Source of the DNA: Flaviaestuariibacter sp.
GTDB taxonomy: Bacteria > Bacteroidota > Bacteroidia > Chitinophagales > Chitinophagaceae
DNA length: 35,024 bases
NCBI GenBank assembly: GCA_028288515.1
Contig: JAQBNP010000211.1
Coordinates: 1 to 35,024 of the forward strand
Direction of reading: 5' to 3'
The number at the start of each line of letters is the position of its first letter. The stretch's first letter is position 1. Positions 7,154 through 33,514 of the stretch are shown here, one piece after another. Position numbers and translations under genes: made by a program. The notes under the pieces were generated by a model, which saw nothing but the letters and a program-made list of their open reading frames with translations, was not told the origin of the DNA and did no database searches.

Positions 7154-8482
7154 TCAGCTCCTCGTCTCTAAATTCAAAAACTCCACTTCCCCGGTGAAGG
7201 ATTGGTTGAAGCTCATCATGTTGTCGAACTTCAGCTTCTCCGTCCGCATTTTCAGCTCGGGATATTTCGGGTTCCAGTTCGCCTGGATCTCTTCGATCGC
7301 CTTCAGGATCGCTTCCTGGTCGAACGTCTTTTTTTCCTTGTCGTAGTAGGCGTTGCTATAGCCGAGCGCCTGGAAGAAATCGGGGTAGTTGATCATCATG
7401 AACAGCTGGAAGAACTCGGTCACCGGCCGCGGCAGGCTGTACGAGTACTGGCAGTAGGCGATCCCATATTCCGATATCAGGGCGGCGATCTCGTAATGCT
7501 TGTTCTCTTTGTACCACGCGATGTTCTGGTTGGCGTTGTAGATCGCGTCCGCGATCGTTTTGTGTGCCTGCGGCATCACGATGGAGAAGGTGTAGCGCGA
7601 GCGGAAGAGGTGCGGGAAGACCTCTTCTTTCGTCCGTGCCTGCAGCTTCATGAATTCTTCGACCATCTCCTGGTTCTTTTCAGAAACGGGACGGTCGTCC
7701 TTGCGGAAATAAATGTCAACGATGCGCTCGATGTTCAGCAGCAGCTTCCCTTCGGGCAGTACGAGAAAATCGATCCGGTAGGCCAGGGCCAGCAGCATAT
7801 AGGCGATTCCACCGGAGAACTTGTCGGCATCAACCGTTTCAATGAGATCGAGCGTTTCCTTGATCCATTTCTGGAGGAATGCAAATTTCACTTCTTTCTC
7901 CGTGTCGGGGATCTGCGTGATATGGTCCGTGTCTACCGGCAGCAGCGACGTGAAATCCTGCACCAGGAGATCGTCCTGCTTGTCGGCCTTTGTTGCCAGC
8001 TCCTTGAGTCCGTAATAGAGCTTGCTGGGGTTGGCCGTTTCGATGTCGCTGTCGAACATCATGCAAAGCTTGTTTCCATTGATGGCGTAGCGGGTGTAGT
8101 AGAGGCTGAAATTCATTTCGAGAAGGCGCCGCATGACGGGCACGCTGGGCACGGGCATCTCGGCGAGCGCGACCTCCGCATTGAGGGTCTTGTCGTTGTA
8201 GAAGCCCCGGATGATCTTGGAACCCTGGTAGAAGGAGAATGTGCCGCTGTTGCCGGTCTGCACATGCGTCACATTGTCCGCCTCATCATCCGCGAGGTAG
8301 TCAAAAAACGTAGCGATGCTTTGGTAGAAATTCTTTTCCTTGAACTGTGCCTCGGCCTCGTTCCATTTCTCGACTTTGCCGATGGGCTTGTTGTTGTCGG
8401 AATAGCGGCCAAACCGGATGACGGGCTGTCCGCTCTCCACTTCTTTCTTTTTCGACCAGCTGAATAAGGTTTCCAACATCAT
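7154..8482 (-). CDS. Unknown protein with a YbjN/CesT-like segment, likely partner of the downstream protease
   Basis: About 442 residues with no signal peptide or membrane segment. The ATG pair at 8482/8479 is preferred over an upstream codon at 8557 because the extra residues are Gly/Pro-rich and an AAGGA lies just upstream of the pair. The N-terminus is followed by a helical segment (KWNEAEAQFKEKNFYQSIAT). Next comes a region at about residues 75-175 whose second half (VMRRLLEMNFSLYYTRYAIN, then LCMMFDSDIETANPSKLYYG, then KADKQDDLL) lines up with the C-terminal domain of the protease at 5906-7009 in spacing and key residues. The C-terminal half is helical with many aromatic residues and unknown to me. 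Gene order and the shared domain suggest heteromer formation, perhaps a substrate adaptor for the protease. That role is inference. Confidence 0.75.
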   Translation of the reverse strand: MMLETLFSWSKKKEVESGQPVIRFGRYSDNNKPIGKVEKWNEAEAQFKEKNFYQSIATFFDYLADDEADNVTHVQTGNSGTFSFYQGSKIIRGFYNDKTLNAEVALAEMPVPSVPVMRRLLEMNFSLYYTRYAINGNKLCMMFDSDIETANPSKLYYGLKELATKADKQDDLLVQDFTSLLPVDTDHITQIPDTEKEVKFAFLQKWIKETLDLIETVDADKFSGGIAYMLLALAYRIDFLVLPEGKLLLNIERIVDIYFRKDDRPVSEKNQEMVEEFMKLQARTKEEVFPHLFRSRYTFSIVMPQAHKTIADAIYNANQNIAWYKENKHYEIAALISEYGIAYCQYSYSLPRPVTEFFQLFMMINYPDFFQALGYSNAYYDKEKKTFDQEAILKAIEEIQANWNPKYPELKMRTEKLKFDNMMSFNQSFTGEVEFLNLETRS

Positions 8483-8675
8483 TCCAATCCTTCGTTTTAG
8501 CAGCCTGTGCCAGGCCGGGTTCGGTCTGCCCGGTGGGCCGGTCGCCCCGGTTCCCAAGTTCCTTCAAAAAAAGGACCACACGCCGCATCAAAATAAGGTC
8601 TTCTTTTTCAATTCCGGTGTTCAGCTCTTCTGTCGTTGCCCGTGAATTACCCGTCCGGCAAGATCAATTTTTGCT

Positions 8676-8683
8676 TAGTTTCG
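8676..8683 (+). promoter_or_regulatory. Possible -7 box of dnaN
   Basis: TAGTTTCG is one base from the TAnnTTTG motif and lies 92 nt before the dnaN ATG. No clear TTG at the -33 spacing was found, so the call is weak. Confidence 0.3.
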
Positions 8684-8775
8684 CCCCGGCCAGAATCCTT
8701 TCCGGGACCGGCGGACGAGACGCTCTCCAGGCGCCGGGAGGCGCTGCCGCTGCCGCCACAGACAAAACAGACAAC

Positions 8776-9891
8776 ATGAAATTTATTGCTTCTTCTTCTC
8801 AACTACTGAAACAACTGCAACAGATCGCGGGCGTCATCAACGCCAATACCGTGCTGCCGATCCTCGAGGACTTTCTTTTCGAAGTGAACAACGGAAAGCT
8901 CACCGTTGTTGCGACCGACCTTGAGACGGTCATGCGGATCCAGCTCGATGTGGAAGCCCGCGAAAGCGGCCGCGTTTGCATCCCGGCCAAGATCCTCATC
9001 GATTCGCTGAAGAACATTGCCGACCAACCGCTGACCTTTACGATCGACAAGAATTTCGGCATCGAGATCACCTCCGATAACGGCAAGTACAAGGTCATGG
9101 GCGAGAACCCCGACAATTTTCCAAAGGAGCCCGCCGCCGACGACACGACCTCCTTCACCATGCCCTCGTCCGCACTGGTAACAGCCATCAACAAGACCCT
9201 GTTCGCCGTGAGCAACGACGACCTGCGCCCGGCCATGACCGGCGTGTTCTTCGAGCTCAATAAAGAGTTTATCCAGTTTGTCGCTACGGACGCGCACCGG
9301 CTGGTTCGCTACAAGCGCACGGACGTGAGCTGCCCCCAGAACGATTCCTTTATCGTTCCGCGCAAGCCGCTCAACCTCCTCAAATCGGCCCTGCCCGACA
9401 ACGAGGACGAGCTGACCATCAACTACAACAGCAACCATCTCTTCGTTCGCAACGGCACCACGCAGCTCAGCTGCCGCCTGATCGACGCACGGTTCCCGGA
9501 CTATAAAGTGGTGATCCCCACCGACAACCCATATAAGCTGCTTGTCGGCAAATCACAGTTCCAGAGCGCTCTGCGCCGCGTCAGCGTTTTCTCCAACAAG
9601 AGCACCAACCAGGTTGCCCTCAATATCAGTGGCAGCGAGCTCGGACTGGCCGCACAGGACGTGGACTTTTCCTTTGAAGGAAATGAGCGCATGAAATGCC
9701 AGTACGACGGCGAAGACCTGACGATCGCCTTCAACGCCCGCTTCCTCATCGAGATGCTCAACGCCTCCGATGGTGAGGAAGTGCGCATCGAGCTGTCGAC
9801 ACCAACAAAGGCCGGCATCCTCCGCCCGACCGACAAAGAGGAAAATGAAGACCTGCTGATGCTGGTGATGCCGCTGATGCTCAACCAATGA
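8776..9891 (+). CDS. dnaN: DNA polymerase III beta subunit (sliding clamp)
   Basis: The ring-shaped clamp that tethers the replicative polymerase to DNA. The ATG at 8776 opens MKFIASSSQLLKQLQQIAGV, the standard first strand and helix, and gives 371 residues against about 366 in E. coli. Landmarks are NANTVLPILEDFLFEV, the domain-1 TDLETVMRIQL strand, KYKVMGENPDNFP, the central FVATDAHRLVRYKR, and the C-terminal LMLVMPLMLNQ. The frame is open upstream to 8533, but that part is not clamp-like and is not used. A strong terminator follows at 9912, so dnaN is transcribed alone. It lies about 8 kb from the predicted oriC. dnaA is not in the window, and dnaN apart from dnaA is common in this phylum. 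Confidence 0.97.
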   Translation: MKFIASSSQLLKQLQQIAGVINANTVLPILEDFLFEVNNGKLTVVATDLETVMRIQLDVEARESGRVCIPAKILIDSLKNIADQPLTFTIDKNFGIEITSDNGKYKVMGENPDNFPKEPAADDTTSFTMPSSALVTAINKTLFAVSNDDLRPAMTGVFFELNKEFIQFVATDAHRLVRYKRTDVSCPQNDSFIVPRKPLNLLKSALPDNEDELTINYNSNHLFVRNGTTQLSCRLIDARFPDYKVVIPTDNPYKLLVGKSQFQSALRRVSVFSNKSTNQVALNISGSELGLAAQDVDFSFEGNERMKCQYDGEDLTIAFNARFLIEMLNASDGEEVRIELSTPTKAGILRPTDKEENEDLLMLVMPLMLNQ

Positions 9892-14510: not shown

Positions 14511-16679
14511 TCAGTAGAACTTGGCGCGGTTGTCCTTGATGTTGGCATCCGTTTTCAGCGGCTCGATCAGGGAATTGCCCTGGCCCTGCTGCATCTGGCT
14601 CATAAAGTTCTGGCGCGCCTGCTGCTGCAGGAACCGGCGCTGGTCGGCGACGCTGCCACCGGCATCCGGCAGGGCGCTTTGGTTGTCGACACGCAGAACG
14701 AACACACCGGACTGGCCCTCGATCGCTTCCGGAACAACCTTACCCTTGTTGGCGGGGTTGAAGGCGGCGCCGATCACGCGGGACTCAAATCCGAGGCCCT
14801 GGTTATTGCCATTGAAGTGCAGGCTGTCAACCGGTTGAACGGGTTGGCCCACCTTGGCGGCGGCCGCCTCGAGGGTCGTGATCGGTCCCAGGTTTTGCTT
14901 GATGCGCTCCGCTTTCTTCTTGTTGCGCAGGATCGGCTCCACGACTGTTCGGGCAGCAGTGGCGCTTTGAACGCCGGCCTTGTTGATGTCGGTGACAACG
15001 GCCACGATATAGGCTTCGCCGATGCGCTCCGGTGCAATCACATCGCCTTTGTCGGCGCTGTAGATGCTGCGAACAAAGGAGCGCGAGGCGCCGATCCCGG
15101 AAACCTGGTATTCGCTCTCTTTAATGTCCGTGGCCGTCATGGGGCGGATGCCTTTGCTTTGAAGCTTCGCGGCATTGGCGCGGAAGGATTCGATGTCCTT
15201 GCTGTTGGCGGCGAACTGGCTGGCCGCCGTGCTGGCCGCGTTTTCCGTTTCATCGCTTGCCTCGATCGGGCGCGCGAAATAAGCGATCTTATAGGCAGGT
15301 GACGAGCCCTTGTGCGCGAGAACTTCCATGACATGGTAGCCCATTTCCGTTTTTACGACATCGACGGTACCAACCGGGTTGGTGAAGAGGAAGTCGTTAA
15401 ATGGCGCATACATCTGGCCAGTGAATACATTTTCATACACACCGCCCTTTTCCTTGCTGCCCGGGTCTTCGGAGAAGCGGGTCACGAGGGAGTCGAACGA
15501 CTGGCCGGCGCGAACCAGGCCGAGCACGCTGTCGGCGATCTTCTTGGCAGACGCGTCGTCGCGGACAGGCACCATCTGGCCGTTCTGCGGGTTGCGCTGG
15601 TAGGTTGAGATCAGGATATGGCGCACCTTGGCGGTGTCGGGGAGCTGCTTTACGTCGAGAATGCGGGACATGGCGTAGACGGCGTTCTGCGAGCCATCGA
15701 GGTAGGGGCCATAGGTGACGCCGACGGGGGCGCTGAGGATGGCCTCCTTATTTGGCTGGCGCATGGCGCTGCGGGAGATATAGCCATTATAGAAAGGCAT
15801 CACGCTGTTGTTCTGCGCGAGAAAGTTCTCGTAGTTCCTGGCGCTGTCGAATGCCGGCTTGAGCTTCAGGAGGGTTTGCTGAACGGCGGCCGAGTCGGCT
15901 GCGGTTGGTGTCGCGGAAAAAGCGACGTAGCTGATGGAGCGCGTTTCTTCCTTTTGCTCGAAGTCGGAGCGGTGGGCATTCACGTAATCGCTGATCTCGC
16001 TGTCCGTCACCTTCACGGCGCTGTCGGAGATCGTACCGTAGGGAACGGCAACGAAGGCGACCTTGGCAATCAGGTTATTGTCGGCGTTTTGCTTTTCGAT
16101 CATCCATTTCGGGAAATAGAAGGTGTTGGCAAGAAGCGATGTGTACTTCTCGGTGCGGCGCTGGTCGCGGAGGTAGCTTACGTATTGGGCAAGCTGCTCG
16201 CGCTCTTCGGCGGAGCCTTTCTTGATCTGGTTGATCTGCGCCTGGGCGGCGGCGCCATTATATCGGCTTGTGGCCGAATCCGTAAAGCGCTGCTTGAGGT
16301 CGGCAGGAGGGTTGGTGCCGAAGAGGATATCGTTGATCTCCTTATCGCTGACCTGGATGCCGAGCTTCTCGTACTGGTCTTCGAGGAGGGTCTGTGTGAC
16401 CTCCTGGTTCCAGACGGCGGCAATGGCGTCCTGGCGGCCTGCATCGCCCATGTCGTAGCCTTGCTGGCGGCTCTGCTCTTCACGCGCTTTGACCTTCTCG
16501 TCGAATTCGGCTGTCTTGATCTTCTTTCCATTGATGCTGCCGACGACGTTGGAGCCACCGCCGAAGAGATTGCTGCGGCCGGTGAAGGCATCCATTAAGA
16601 TGAAGCCGACGAGGGACACCGCGATCGCGATCACCGCGATCCGTGCGTACTTATCCCTGATACTTTGAATAACTGACAT
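14511..16679 (-). CDS. Membrane-anchored SurA/PpiD-type peptidylprolyl isomerase
   Basis: A periplasmic folding factor for exported and outer-membrane proteins. The ATG at 16679 gives MSVIQSIRDKYARIAVIAIA and 722 residues. A membrane helix at about residues 13-31 anchors the protein. Residues about 45-200 resemble the SurA N-terminal chaperone domain (SINGKKIKTAEFDEKVK). A parvulin rotamase domain spans about 350-455 (VRHILISTYQ, SFDSLVTRFSEDPGSKEKGG, VKTEMGYHVMEVL). A second, degenerate rotamase-like region may follow. The architecture is that of PpiD, though longer than the roughly 620 residues of the E. coli protein. It has a canonical promoter at 16716-16745 inside the oriC interval and a strong terminator. 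It is monocistronic. Confidence 0.92.
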   Translation of the reverse strand: MSVIQSIRDKYARIAVIAIAVSLVGFILMDAFTGRSNLFGGGSNVVGSINGKKIKTAEFDEKVKAREEQSRQQGYDMGDAGRQDAIAAVWNQEVTQTLLEDQYEKLGIQVSDKEINDILFGTNPPADLKQRFTDSATSRYNGAAAQAQINQIKKGSAEEREQLAQYVSYLRDQRRTEKYTSLLANTFYFPKWMIEKQNADNNLIAKVAFVAVPYGTISDSAVKVTDSEISDYVNAHRSDFEQKEETRSISYVAFSATPTAADSAAVQQTLLKLKPAFDSARNYENFLAQNNSVMPFYNGYISRSAMRQPNKEAILSAPVGVTYGPYLDGSQNAVYAMSRILDVKQLPDTAKVRHILISTYQRNPQNGQMVPVRDDASAKKIADSVLGLVRAGQSFDSLVTRFSEDPGSKEKGGVYENVFTGQMYAPFNDFLFTNPVGTVDVVKTEMGYHVMEVLAHKGSSPAYKIAYFARPIEASDETENAASTAASQFAANSKDIESFRANAAKLQSKGIRPMTATDIKESEYQVSGIGASRSFVRSIYSADKGDVIAPERIGEAYIVAVVTDINKAGVQSATAARTVVEPILRNKKKAERIKQNLGPITTLEAAAAKVGQPVQPVDSLHFNGNNQGLGFESRVIGAAFNPANKGKVVPEAIEGQSGVFVLRVDNQSALPDAGGSVADQRRFLQQQARQNFMSQMQQGQGNSLIEPLKTDANIKDNRAKFY

Positions 16680-16715
16680 AGGTGGAGGAGTTTCGGTTTT
16701 TATGTAAACAGTGGG

Positions 16716-16745
16716 CAAATTTAGGGGATTCGATGTTATCAACAA
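16716..16745 (-). promoter_or_regulatory. Promoter of the SurA/PpiD-like foldase gene
   Basis: On the minus strand TTG (16745-16743), a 19-nt spacer and TAAATTTG (16723-16716) match the phylum consensus, ending 36 nt before the ATG. It overlaps a one-mismatch DnaA box at 16736-16744, so DnaA could influence it. Confidence 0.6.
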
Positions 16746-17190
16746 TCGGTGGAAAACAGCCAAAACCCTATATTTTCCAATGGTTTCCGGTGGTCGGAGC
16801 AGCCGGCGCGCACCGGTCCGGCGCGGGGCATTCCGACGACCCCCGGTGTTTGCCCGCCGGGCTGTGGATTTCGTCCGGCGGGTGTGAATAACCGTTGTGG
16901 AACTGTGACATGGAACGTGGCCAGATGGTCAGTAAAATGATTAGGGTTGGATGGTCGGGCCGGGTTGCCGGATAAGTCGATGGTTTTCCGCAGGCTATTC
17001 ACAGGTCGAAAAAATACGATACCTGCCGCGTGTTTTCACAATGGTAAATCCACATCCCTGTGGAAAAAACAGCGCGGTGCCCGGCCCATTGATACCTTTG
17101 CTGTGAATAAGGACCGCGATCCTGTGAATAACTGCACCAAATTTGCATCCTTCAAAAACCGGGGTCGAATTATCCACCAATTCACAGCCC

Positions 17191-17242
17191 TAGTAGTAGT
17201 AGGTTTCTTTTATAAATTAAATAGAATACTAGTAGTTATTAT
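17191..17242 (+). other. DnaA-trio run and AT-rich unwinding element of oriC
   Basis: Four TAG triplets at 17191-17202 follow a DnaA box (17170-17178) and a short GC step (GCCC). The next 40 bp are almost entirely A and T, up to the nadA start codon. This order (box, GC step, trios, AT-rich DNA) is that of the bacterial basal unwinding system. Confidence 0.7.
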
Positions 17243-18256
17243 ATGCAAGGGGAAATGTTGATAGCCGCCGAAAACGAGATCCTGGAGAACGGATTCCTCG
17301 ACCGGCCGATCGATCCGACGCTGGACCTGTTCGCCGAGATCGAGAAGCTCAAGAAAGAAAAGAATGCCGTGATCCTGGCCCACCTGTACCAGGAGCCCGA
17401 TATCCAGGACATCGCCGATTTTATCGGTGACTCCCTCGGCCTGGCGGAAAAGGCCGCCCAGACCAACGCCGATATGATCGTCTTTGCCGGCGTCCACTTC
17501 ATGGCCGAGACCGCCAAGATCCTCAACCCCTCCAAAAAGGTGGTCATCCCCGACTTTAAAGCGGGCTGCTCCCTGAGCGAAAGCTGCCCGCCACCCCTGT
17601 TCCGCAAGTTCCGGGAGCAGCACCCCGACCATATCGTGATCTCCTACATCAACTGCAGCGCCGGCATCAAGGCGCTGACGGACGTGATCTGCACCTCCTC
17701 CAACGCGAAGGCGATCGTGGAGAGCTTCCCGCCCGACCAGAAGATCATCTTTGCGCCCGACCGCAACCTCGGCGGCTGGATTAACCGGGAAACAGGCCGC
17801 AACATGCTGCTCTGGAACGGCGCCTGCATGGTTCACGAGATCTTCTCGCTGGAAAAGATCACCCGCCTGAAGGTGCGTCACCCGAACGCAAAGCTCATTT
17901 CCCACCCCGAGTGCGAGGAGCCGGTCCTGCGCATCTCCGACTTTGTCGGGTCCACGACCCAGCTGCTGGCCTATGTGAAGAATACCCCCAACCAGGAGTT
18001 CATCGTGGCCACGGAGGCAGGGATTCTTCACCAGATGCAAAAGCAGGCCCCCGGGAAGACCCTTATTCCGGCCCCTCCTGACAACCACTGCGCCTGCAAT
18101 GATTGTCCCCACATGAAGCGCAATACCCTCGAGAAGGTGTACCTGTGCATGAAATACGAGCAACCTGAGATCATCATGGACGAAACGCTGCGCCTCCAGG
18201 CCAAAGGATCGCTCGACCGGATGCTGGAGATCAGCCGGCAGGTGGGAATCCTGTAG
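17243..18256 (+). CDS. nadA: Quinolinate synthase A
   Basis: NadA condenses iminoaspartate with dihydroxyacetone phosphate to quinolinate for de novo NAD synthesis, using a [4Fe-4S] cluster. The 337 residues include [24 protein letters not shown], the cluster ligands C109 (KAGCSLSE), C195 (NGACMVHE) and C288 (NDCPHMKRN), and the family landmarks [23 protein letters not shown] and HPECEEPV. Met1 at 17243 lies directly at the AT-rich end of oriC. Met5 is an alternative start. No nadB or nadC is in the window, while nadD is at 32157. Transcription probably starts inside the origin interval, but no clear promoter was found. Confidence 0.96.
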
Positions 18257-28163: not shown

Positions 28164-28550
28164 ATGAAACGAATCCTCTTTTTACTTGTCGTCGGACTCG
28201 CCGCCTGCGACCCGCCCGTGATCGATGATTCCGGCTACGGGACGCTTGGTTTCTCGCACGTACAAACCACGCGAACGACAACGACATCTGCCGGTATCCA
28301 GTCATCGGTGCAGGTAAGCGGTTCGAACCTGTGCTATTCCTTCACGAATTTCCAGGTGCTGCAACTGACCGACCGGTCGTTCAATGTGTTTGCAAAAGGG
28401 CAGGTGCCCACGAGCCAGTCGATCTGCGCGCAGGCCATTTACACGAAGGACACCACACTGCTGATCCCGGTCACGCAGCCCGGTTCCTATATTGTCAATT
28501 TCATGAACCCACTCGGGTTGTTCCGGTCAGATACGATCCAGGTGAATTAG
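28164..28550 (+). CDS. Small lipoprotein of unknown function
   Basis: 128 residues with a clear lipoprotein signal, MKRILFLLVVGLAACDPP, where LAAC is the lipobox with Cys15. Asp after the Cys might retain it in the inner membrane by the E. coli rule, but Bacteroidota sorting differs. The mature part is Ser/Thr-rich and strand-like (VQTTRTTTTSAGIQSSVQVS, then DTTLLIPVTQPGSYIVNFM), resembling a small beta-sandwich. It follows feoB by 36 bp on the same strand and may be co-transcribed. Its stop overlaps the stop of the convergent hydrolase gene by 4 bp. Confidence 0.78.
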   Translation: MKRILFLLVVGLAACDPPVIDDSGYGTLGFSHVQTTRTTTTSAGIQSSVQVSGSNLCYSFTNFQVLQLTDRSFNVFAKGQVPTSQSICAQAIYTKDTTLLIPVTQPGSYIVNFMNPLGLFRSDTIQVN

Positions 28551-29452
28551 TCGAACCGCGGCGTTTCAGGATCCGGCGACCAGTTGTCCTTCGGCTCAAA
28601 GTGGTGCCAGAGAAGGGCTGACAGCTTTCGGGTAAGTTCCCATGCTTCGTTGTTGTTGACCCATGTGGTGTCCACATTGTTCTTCGTCATAATGCAGAAA
28701 ACATAATGGCTGTGCGGGCCATGGACGAGCACGACCTCGTTGCGTGTTTGGTTGACGGCACCGGACTTGGAAAAGATGGCTGCATACGGCGGGATCTGCG
28801 AGAGGGCGGTCATGTCATAAAAGCTTCGGTTGAGAAGGCGAAGCATTTTGTCGCTGGCGGCTTTGCTGATGATCGTGCCCGCATCGATGCGCTCGAGCAG
28901 GGTGGCCATTTCGCGTGGTGACGACTGTCCCCAACCGTAAAGAGTCCTGTTTGGTTCGCGGCCCGTTGTGCGTGAATTGACGCGCGTTACAACAAAGCCG
29001 AGGCTGTCCATGATCTGGTTGATCCTGTCGCCCTTTCCCGCAAGGCTTTGCAGCCAGAGGCTTGCCGTATTGTCGCTCATCGTCAGCATGAGCATCATCA
29101 CTTTTCCGAGCTCGATCTTTTCCGTGTCTTTGAAAGAGCCGAGGATATCGACACCCGCATAAAGAAGGCTGTCGCGGTAGCGAAGCTCCTGGTGGTAGGA
29201 TAGCTCACCGCGGTTGATGCGGTCCATGACGCAGATCATGATCGGAACCTTGACCATACTTGCGGTGGGGAAGATCGTATCGGCATGATAAGAGGCGATG
29301 CGCCCATTCTCCAGGTTGCGTACATAGACGCCAACGTCGCCATGGAAGGACGTCACGATCTCCTCGAGCTGGCGTTGCAGCCGCTTGTCGGTTTTTTGGG
29401 CACCGGCAGATAAGGTAACGATGAGTGCGATGCACAGAAGGAACGGTTTCAT
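28547..29452 (-). CDS. Class A beta-lactamase-fold serine hydrolase
   Basis: 301 residues, exported (MKPFLLCIALIVTLSAGA-Q). The penicillin-recognising motifs are visible: S65-x-x-K68 (TASMVK), S126-D127-N128 (MSDNTAS), an omega-loop-like REPNRT with E166, and K229-S230-G231 (FSKSGAVN) in place of the usual KTG. It may be a true class A beta-lactamase or a related D,D-peptidase or esterase. Spacing fits class A, but KSG and the weak omega loop leave this open. The ATG at 29452 overlaps the TGA of the M20 gene by one base (TGATG), so the two are translationally coupled. A TTG one codon earlier is rejected. Confidence 0.88.
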   Translation of the reverse strand: MKPFLLCIALIVTLSAGAQKTDKRLQRQLEEIVTSFHGDVGVYVRNLENGRIASYHADTIFPTASMVKVPIMICVMDRINRGELSYHQELRYRDSLLYAGVDILGSFKDTEKIELGKVMMLMLTMSDNTASLWLQSLAGKGDRINQIMDSLGFVVTRVNSRTTGREPNRTLYGWGQSSPREMATLLERIDAGTIISKAASDKMLRLLNRSFYDMTALSQIPPYAAIFSKSGAVNQTRNEVVLVHGPHSHYVFCIMTKNNVDTTWVNNNEAWELTRKLSALLWHHFEPKDNWSPDPETPRFD

Positions 29453-30771
29453 CAAAAAGTCTTTTGCTTGCCGCCTGTGGCAGTTGCTTGTTTCATATAA
29501 TCAGTGACCAGGTAAACGAAGGCCTTGATGCCTGTCTTCATGCCGCTTTCATCGATTGTGAAATCAGGTGTGTGGTGTGGCCCCGTTGTTTTGGGATCGG
29601 TGCCGGGTGTCATACCGCCAACATAAAAGAAAAGGGCGGGAACACTGGCAGCGAAGAAAGAATAGTCTTCTGCTCCCGTCTGCGCATCCATGAGCAAGGT
29701 ATTGTTGGCCGTTGCTTTATTGAGCGATGGGAGCATCGCCTGCATAAGGTCGGGGTTGTTATAGGTAACAAGGGTCTTCGATGCGATCTCGACATCGGCC
29801 GTGGCGCCGGAAGCTTCCGCGATGTTTTTTGCGGTTCGCTCGATGCGGCGCCAGACGTCGTGCTGCATGGCCGTATCGAGCGTTCGGATGGTGCCGGCAA
29901 TTGTTGCTTCCTCGGGGATGATGTTTTCACGGACGCCGCCTTTGAAGATGGTGGTGGAAATCACAACGGCATTCTTTGTGAGCTCAGTCTGCCGGCTGAC
30001 GATCGTTTGAAGTCCTTCGATGATCTGTGCACCGATCACAACCGGGTCGATGCCCATCCATGGCTGCGCGCCATGCGACTGCTTGCCGTGGATCTTGATG
30101 GAGAACCAGTCGGAGGCGGCCATCATGCCACCGGGCCGGTACTTGATCTGGCCGGCGGGGGTCTGTGCGTTGATGTGGAGGCCGAACATCACGTCGACCT
30201 TTGGATTGTCGAGGGCGCCTTCTTTGATCATGAGGGCCGCGCCTCCTTCTTCACCGGCGGGGGGACCTTCCTCTGCCGGCTGGAAGATGAATTTGACGGT
30301 GCCGGCGAGCTCGGCCTTCATGCCTGCCAGGACGGTGGCTGTGCTGAGGAGCATAGCCACATGCGTATCGTGGCCGCATGCGTGCATCACGCCGACCTCC
30401 TGGCCGTTGTATTGTGCTTTTACTTTGGAAGCGAAGGGAAGGGGAACACGCTCGGTGACCGGTAGGGCGTCGATGTCCGCGCGCAGGCCGATGACCGGCC
30501 CGGGCTTTCCGCCTTTGAGAATGGCAATGACGCCCGTGTGGGCAACGTTCTCGCGAACCTCCAGGCCTAGGCTGCGGAGGTGGGCGGCGATGATCTTTGC
30601 CGTCCGAAACTCACGGTTACCGAGTTCGGGGTTCTGGTGAAGGTCGCGCCTCCAGGCGATGCACTGCGGCTCAACCCTGGCGACTGCCGCATCGATGGAG
30701 GCTGGTGTAATGCGCTGGGCGTTGACCGTAGCTGTGAGAAGGATCGGAGCGAGGAAGAGGAGTAGTCTCAT
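29452..30771 (-). CDS. Exported M20-family amidohydrolase (N-acyl amino acid / hippurate hydrolase type)
   Basis: 439 residues. The ATG at 30771 begins a good signal peptide, MRLLLFLAPILLTATVNAQ. Codons farther upstream would add about 80 residues of non-protein-like sequence. Family landmarks are RRDLHQNPELGNREFRT, GLRADIDALPV, the metal-binding VMHACGHDTHVAML (C132, H134), FQPAEEGPPAGEEGG with the catalytic Glu pair, the dimerisation-domain IKIHGKQSHGAQPWMGIDP, and the late metal ligand His in PHHTPDF. Cys in HACGHD is typical of the M20D group, which cleaves N-acyl or amide bonds of amino acids and short peptides. Translationally coupled to the beta-lactamase-fold gene downstream, the pair may act on envelope or extracellular amides. 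Confidence 0.93.
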   Translation of the reverse strand: MRLLLFLAPILLTATVNAQRITPASIDAAVARVEPQCIAWRRDLHQNPELGNREFRTAKIIAAHLRSLGLEVRENVAHTGVIAILKGGKPGPVIGLRADIDALPVTERVPLPFASKVKAQYNGQEVGVMHACGHDTHVAMLLSTATVLAGMKAELAGTVKFIFQPAEEGPPAGEEGGAALMIKEGALDNPKVDVMFGLHINAQTPAGQIKYRPGGMMAASDWFSIKIHGKQSHGAQPWMGIDPVVIGAQIIEGLQTIVSRQTELTKNAVVISTTIFKGGVRENIIPEEATIAGTIRTLDTAMQHDVWRRIERTAKNIAEASGATADVEIASKTLVTYNNPDLMQAMLPSLNKATANNTLLMDAQTGAEDYSFFAASVPALFFYVGGMTPGTDPKTTGPHHTPDFTIDESGMKTGIKAFVYLVTDYMKQATATGGKQKTF

Positions 30772-33027: not shown

Positions 33028-33474
33028 ATGGCCAGTATTGACCCTTCGCGCGTGAGCTTTCATTACCTCGACGTCTCGTTCCAATTCCCGCAACGGACGA
33101 AGCTGAAGTTCTTCCTGCTTGAGCGGGTACTCAAGGAGAAGCGATCCGTAGACTCCCTTTCTTATATTTTCTGCACCGACGCCTACCTCCTGGAGATGAA
33201 CCGCCAGTTCCTCGACCACGATACGCTTACTGATATTATCACCTTCCCTTTTTCCGCTAACGGGGAACCGCTTCATTCGGACATCTATATCAGTGTGGAG
33301 CGTGTACGGGAGAACGCGAAAACGTTTGAGACCAGCTTCCGAAGAGAATTGCACCGCGTCATCTTTCACGGCCTGCTGCACCTGTTCGGCTATAAGGATA
33401 AGACGAAGCCCGACGCGGCCCGAATGCGCGAAATGGAAGAGTTGTTGTTGGACCAATACTTTCGTTCCACGTGA
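33028..33474 (+). CDS. ybeY: Endoribonuclease YbeY / rRNA maturation factor
   Basis: 148 residues. YbeY is a zinc-dependent RNase involved in 16S rRNA 3'-end maturation and ribosome quality control. The sequence shows LEMNRQFLDHDTLTDIITFP (the NxxxLxHDxxTDVLTFP-type box) and the zinc site HGLLHLFGYKD with H114 and H118. The third ligand position is D/K rather than the His of proteobacterial YbeY, which I recall as usual for Bacteroidota. The last codons (CGT TCC ACG TGA) form the left half of a parS-like palindrome. It is followed by mnmG on the same strand after 61 bp. Confidence 0.94.
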   Translation: MASIDPSRVSFHYLDVSFQFPQRTKLKFFLLERVLKEKRSVDSLSYIFCTDAYLLEMNRQFLDHDTLTDIITFPFSANGEPLHSDIYISVERVRENAKTFETSFRRELHRVIFHGLLHLFGYKDKTKPDAARMREMEELLLDQYFRST

Positions 33475-33498: not shown

Positions 33499-33514
33499 TG
33501 TTCCCCGTGGAACA
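33499..33514. other. parS-like palindrome 2 (ParB binding site)
   Basis: TGTTCCCCGTGGAACA is a 16-bp palindrome with one mismatched pair, of the TGTTCCACGTGGAACA type. Its centre lies 36 bp from that of the first site, in the ybeY-mnmG gap. Confidence 0.55.

Follow-up and report, generated by a model that had tools for sequence, protein, structure and literature searches.

The basal unwinding system (BUS) of B. subtilis is the closest described counterpart of the element reported here. According to the portion of PMC8287927 available to us, the BUS rule calls for a DnaA box that departs from TTATCCACA at no more than two positions and for three or more NAN trios, separated by a spacer of at most 16 bp in which ~4 bp are GC-rich; a second box, with up to four mismatches, is optional. 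In the same portion, the spacer from the better box to the trios peaks at 10–13 bp, the better box is more often the upstream one, and potential BUS sequences are counted in 1755 of 2070 predicted origins (PMC8287927). The presence of a BUS is therefore by itself not new. Base capture by DnaA on the trios is a mechanism described in the accessible part of PMC10721633. A second type of reference is the E. coli-type oriC, located between gidA (mnmG) and mioC, and DoriC and Ori-Finder 2022 use the same kinds of evidence as we do, namely skew, boxes, trios and indicator genes (PMC10225481, excerpted text). Entries from Chitinophagaceae may already be present in the DoriC tables or in the supplement of PMC8287927. 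No description of a nadA-linked origin was found among the matches listed for literature on Bacteroidota origins and DnaA-trios (titles and abstract starts).

We analyzed a 35,024-nucleotide stretch of DNA from Flaviaestuariibacter sp., hereafter the window, which is the entire contig C232 of a 3.28-Mb, 303-contig, 84%-complete assembly. A sequence-only reading had placed a predicted oriC with DnaA boxes, DnaA-trios and an unwinding tract at 16680..17242, and this prediction has since been strengthened by GC skew in three of five sampled relatives, by parS-like sites and conservation in relatives, and by the decoupling of the element from nadA. We consider it highly likely that the interval is the chromosomal replication origin (oriC) and carries a BUS; the location and anatomy of this predicted oriC are backed by sequence and comparison, and it is very probably a member of an already known kind with a textbook BUS. 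As in the B. subtilis BUS, insofar as the consulted part of PMC8287927 describes it, there is a co-oriented box pair, a 4-bp GC-rich spacer, a better box 12 bp off the first trio, and 5′-TAG-3′ (3′-GAT-5′) trios followed by AT-rich DNA. Unlike the B. subtilis BUS, the window element lies away from dnaA, between ppiD and nadA, and same-genus relatives commonly have TAA-TAG-TAA-TAG rather than pure TAG. Its two boxes also overlap by 1 bp, a feature absent from the rule text in the portion of PMC8287927 seen. The wider neighborhood includes mnmG, as around the E. coli-type oriC, but here mnmG is 16 kb off with a parS-like site before it, and the immediate neighbors are ppiD and nadA. If the prediction is correct, it places oriC in a family whose origin does not adjoin dnaA. 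It would also supply a motif by which oriC can be recognized in metagenome assemblies, fragmented ones included, and would extend the evolutionary support for a box–spacer–trio arrangement with an example from Bacteroidota.

DnaA boxes and putative unwinding element of the interval

The predicted oriC occupies the region between a ppiD/SurA-like gene on the minus strand (14511-16679; PF13623, PF13616) and nadA on the plus strand (17243-18256; PF02445), as delimited by the sequence and by aligning 16 loci of the genus, the own among them; the nadA start codon at 17243 is conserved in this alignment (L045 was omitted for its short upstream DNA). The interval had been called gene-free and 563 bp long; the length is correct, and it holds short mechanical ORFs and no recognized genes. 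The neighbors named in the same reading were also recovered, with dnaN to the left (8533-9891) and, to the right, mnmG from 33536, 16 kb from the interval, and parS-like sites at 33463 and 33499. As it had stated, dnaA is not in the window, and we located it on another contig of the same assembly, C109. A beta-lactamase-family protein (PF13354) is encoded at 28547-29455, within the origin neighborhood.

Seven DnaA boxes at no more than one mismatch had been listed for the interval, and all seven are present. Three are perfect TTATTCACA boxes on the minus strand, at 16883..16891 (matching a tGtg.AtAA block in the alignment consensus), 17102..17110 (just past a conserved TA-CTTTG, with only the TGtG half well conserved) and 17123..17131 (a tGtG.ATAA consensus block), the last two being 21 bp apart. 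The four one-mismatch boxes are TTATCAACA at 16736..16744 on the plus strand, which has no conserved block in the same-genus alignment; CTATTCACA at 16995..17003 on the plus strand, with an ATTCACA block in the consensus; TTTTCCACA at 17059..17067 on the minus strand, which faces AATCCACA at ~17047, both halves being in the consensus; and TTATCCACC at 17170..17178 on the plus strand. The earlier list omitted a second trio-adjacent box at 17178-17186. Across the 16 aligned upstream regions, own included, most of the other boxes are conserved in the same order and orientation. The box cluster is well above chance in the window: when the interval was dinucleotide-shuffled 5000 times, three perfect boxes never appeared together, and the seven boxes at no more than one mismatch compare with a shuffle mean of 0.52 and a maximum of 4 (1000 shuffles). 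The own assembly, from which ~16% of the genome is absent, holds 55 TTATNCACA in 3.28 Mb, and only on C232 do three fall within 600 bp. Sites with two boxes occur elsewhere at C145:7442/7463 and C176:5913/6278. A denser perfect-box cluster at another locus, which the sequence-only reading had named as evidence that would speak against it, was thus not found in the own assembly.

The ordered series of box, GC step, (TAG)4 and AT tract that had been reported at one end of the interval is complete at 17170-17242. It begins with the one-mismatch box TTATCCACC (17170..17178), 12 bp before the first trio, and continues with the second box CAATTCACA (17178..17186, plus strand), 4 bp before the first trio, which is AATYCACA-like in relatives and has two mismatches to TTATNCACA and three to TTATCCACA; the two boxes share one base (17178). 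A GC-rich spacer GCCC (17187..17190, plus strand), recognized from the sequence and the same-genus alignment, is followed by four DnaA-trios 5′-TAGTAGTAGTAG-3′, that is (TAG)4 (17191..17202, plus strand), for which same-genus relatives commonly have TAATAGTAATAG, and then by a putative AT-rich unwinding tract (17203..17242; 6 G/C in 40 by hand count) that doubles as the nadA leader. Set against the BUS rule, the window thus has boxes with one and three mismatches to TTATCCACA and a 4-bp spacer; TTATCCACC lies within the two-mismatch limit and, at 12 bp from the trios, within the 16-bp limit, and the four consecutive TAG units exceed the minimum of three NAN trios. The boxes are in tandem and co-oriented, the upstream one at 17170 being nearer the consensus than that at 17178, which is the most frequent arrangement though not a required one. 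A box followed within 16 bp by at least four TA[AG] trios was obtained in 0 of 5000 shuffles, and by at least three trios in 4 of 5000; in the 35-kb window, 17170 is the sole site with a box and at least three trios.

By analogy with the B. subtilis BUS, DnaA would bind the box cluster at 16736-17131, and the co-oriented pair at 17170-17186 would hand DnaA to the (TAG)4 trios of the plus strand. The DnaA filament would then extend along these trios, capturing their bases, and open the AT tract at 17203-17242, where the helicase would be loaded. As this tract is also the nadA leader, we would guess that transcription of nadA may influence the opening or respond to it.

Conservation, GC skew and parS sites in relatives

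We searched for the element with the pattern TTCACANCCNTAATAGTARTRG at no more than three mismatches, using the reversed pattern as a control; the pattern was written after relatives had been viewed. In the own assembly it matched once and the reversed control did not match. The genome set comprised 58 genomes including the own, 45 of which have a NadA match. All 17 nadA-bearing genomes of the genus (counting the own) have the element within ~130 bp upstream of that gene, as do 14 of the 16 other nadA-bearing family genomes, the exceptions being G018 and G027. Outside the family, at the order level, none of the 12 genomes with a NadA match has the pattern beside nadA. One same-genus genome, G009, is missing both a NadA match and a good element. 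Speaking against the oriC reading, the element is missing from the vicinity of nadA in G027, and a search of the rest of that genome gave no convincing copy.

A 34-nt profile, trained on the 17 same-genus loci after relatives had been viewed, split 80 named loci into 28 that scored 24.0-53.5 in the DNA preceding nadA and 52 that scored no more than 1.9 there (one of the scanned loci, L102, offered just 71 bp of upstream sequence). The control, the rest of all 80 loci, scored at most 11.9. An opposite-facing ppiD homolog begins no more than 2.5 kb upstream in 22 of the 28 profile-positive loci. Family members carrying the element include Terrimonas ferruginea (L068) and Chitinophaga sp. E66 (L107). 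L068 and G020 look like one genome with the same element, so that the named-locus and genome sets partly overlap. In a phylum-wide scan at no more than two mismatches, 15 of 198 genomes had a match. Matches with at most one mismatch were confined to the family (5 of the 8 family genomes scanned); of the remaining three, G030 has a match at three mismatches, and G073 and G169 have none at two or fewer. Genomes of other families contributed 10 matches, all at two mismatches, whereas the control pattern matched 13 times overall, so that the exact signature is a family-level one.

Since 303 contigs make up the own assembly, skew was examined on relatives. Within the window itself the skew alternates repeatedly between positive and negative and shows no clear transition at 17 kb, which speaks against the oriC reading. 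We sampled 20 stretches of 20 kb (~400 kb) from each of five relatives, two of the stretches flanking the nadA start; G003, G015 and G034 are each assembled as a single contig, G012 and G030 are each represented by a near-complete main contig, and for G034 a further 360 kb was read to obtain 400 contiguous kb. A candidate origin with its terminus opposite was fitted to whole-sequence and third-position GC skew. The element has the maximum score for both measures in G015, G034 and G030. Across the nadA start (20 kb each side) the skew changes from -0.034 to +0.008 in G034 and from -0.018 to +0.007 in G030, and the cumulative G-C minimum of the 400 contiguous kb in G034 is 10.1 kb from the element. 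In G012 the element is near the best GC fit, which is at 0.32-0.50 Mb versus 0.605 Mb for the element, and 10.7% and 11.1% of positions fit equally well or better. G003, whose skew is too weak to decide, has its best GC fit at 2.82-3.04 Mb and its best third-position fit at 4.02-4.06 Mb, with the element at 3.71 Mb and 20.5% and 20.9% of positions fitting equally well or better. The G012 and G003 fits weigh against the oriC reading, as does gene-strand bias, which is in accord with the element only in G015 among the five chromosomes. Local skew, 9 kb on each side of nadA, was set aside as evidence; the right side exceeds the left in 14 of 15 motif loci and 13 of 15 Sphingobacteriaceae-type loci, but it does so in 10 of 15 other loci too and thus discriminates poorly (based on the 45 of 80 loci with sufficient flanking sequence).

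Parallel to the skew, parS-like sites were called with a consensus that we take to be that of parS. In each of the five chromosomes, sites at one mismatch or fewer immediately precede mnmG, at distances of 3.9-17.3 kb from the element, and none was found elsewhere in the ~400 kb sampled from each. In the window, the one-mismatch site at 33499..33514, ahead of mnmG, is the only site at that threshold in the own assembly, and the second one, at 33463, has two mismatches. A parS-like site close to the predicted origin is thus present in five of five relatives (sampled sequence) and in the own window at 33499. That the origin lies away from dnaA, as had been proposed, agrees with the distance of 0.41-1.94 Mb between dnaA and the element in G003, G012, G015, G034 and G030.

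Counted over the 700 bp that precede nadA, the number of perfect boxes varies among these relatives (3 in G003, 1 in G012, 2 in G015, 7 in G034 and 0 in G030), as does that of boxes with at most one mismatch (9, 7, 9, 15 and 7, respectively). The 600 bp beside the element in G034 hold 7 of the 25 TTATNCACA sites of the 400 contiguous kb, the densest cluster there, and in G003 and G015 the densest perfect-box cluster within ±20 kb coincides with the element. In G030 and G012 it is elsewhere, which counts against the oriC reading, and our confidence in that reading is slightly lower because these two relatives have no dense perfect-box cluster.

Alternative explanations

DnaA box clusters can titrate DnaA, and the interval could be a datA-like titration cluster or another non-origin DnaA site near the true origin. 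The own contig C145 offers a candidate for such a site, with another perfect pair 21 bp apart: its stretch 7350-7475 (L032) carries two perfect TTATCCACA and TTTTCCACA between mraZ (PF02381) and queA (PF02547), and is possibly a DnaA-regulated or titration site. The C145 pair, however, has no trio element, the window element combines a box with four trios that no shuffle reproduced, its pattern matched once in the own assembly at up to three mismatches, and the best-fit origin is at the element in three chromosomes. We therefore regard titration as a quite improbable account of the interval. The rival box clusters (C145 over the whole contig, and stretches of C176 and C295) were searched and set aside, having no box-plus-trio element, and none was found on the dnaA contig C109 either. 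Paired perfect boxes in six named genomes gave 5 matches in 3 of the 6; both matches in the L107 genome are more than 1 Mb from nadA, if its C1 is CP079103.1.

The conserved element might also serve the expression of nadA, as its promoter or regulatory leader, possibly under control by DnaA. Its position is in keeping with this, 33-159 bp upstream of the nadA match in the 28 of 80 named loci and the 17 same-genus loci. So is a conserved TACCTTTG at 17092-17099, ahead of box 17102 in the same-genus alignment, which presumably resembles the Bacteroidota -7 promoter box; transcription from this candidate promoter would run across the BUS into nadA. Two genomes separate the element from the gene. 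G033 (96% complete) keeps the element as TTATCCCCAAATTCACATACATAATAGTAATAA although no NadA match was found; it is flanked there by a ppiD-like gene (PF13623, PF13616) on one side and, on the other, by a gene coding for a PA domain and a secretion tail, and no perfect box was found in the gap that holds it, which counts against the oriC reading. In G018 the element is ~383 kb from nadA on the same contig, flanked by ABC-transporter and alpha/beta-hydrolase genes, with none beside nadA; this copy is weaker, with a two-mismatch box and three trios, which likewise counts against the oriC reading. These results show that the element does not always travel with nadA and does not need it, and on the strength of G018 and G033 we reject a nadA leader as its sole role. 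A leader would also leave the coincidence with skew and parS unexplained, and we consider this explanation very improbable, although the interval may double as a nadA leader as well. Judged from sequence, the predicted origin is a conserved locus that persists when its neighbors change.

A chance meeting of a random box cluster with a TAG microsatellite, to which the further single TTATTCACA sites at 2197 and 14397 of the window lend some color, has a negligible probability given the shuffle tests and the conservation across genera.

Lineage variants of the element

The trio track is commonly TAA-TAG-TAA-TAG in Chitinophagaceae. Among L091-L140, 18 loci of Sphingobacteriaceae type were examined, and in 17 of them a different form, related to the element, precedes nadA, consisting of a diverged box and a TAATAA-N-[TC]AATAAG-like track. 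These loci were picked by title and by eye, and the pattern was written after viewing them. The track reads like TAATAA-g-TAATAAG or TAATAA-a-CAATAAG, with what seem to be two trios, an extra base and more trio-like units, and lies ~80-200 bp upstream of nadA; control matches numbered 8 in 683,748 strand-bases, ~0.005 per 400 bp. In 15 of the 18 loci, mnmG is 4.7-6.8 kb upstream. A second order may thus share the nadA-linked origin, with trios offset by one base; that it was kept across two orders while the trio track was rebuilt by lineage is a tentative idea, and we lean against it.

A second, facing box was sought in 55 elements. None was seen in the window's own element. A second box with trio-like repeats facing the first BUS was detected by script in L060 and L069 and by eye in L070, L089 and the G018 locus L216. 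In L060 a perfect box is followed by CTCA and TAATAATAATAA, facing back over the AT tract, and the L069 counterpart is weaker. Reverse-strand profile scores of 19.5 (L069) and 13.0 (L089) in the same 500 bp correspond to these mirrored boxes. Facing boxes that the script flagged in L039 and L044-L048 were taken as chance, being two-mismatch boxes at or inside the nadA start. The mirrored boxes look as if the bubble could open from both sides. If functional, the variants would be natural tests of the rigidity of the DnaA register and of the loading of two helicases, and would likewise allow the effects of trio spacing, and of opening from one side or from both, to be compared.

Two nadA copies were observed in G016 (L041 and L164), on separate contigs and each with its own BUS; the duplicate may reflect a strain mixture or a duplicated origin region.
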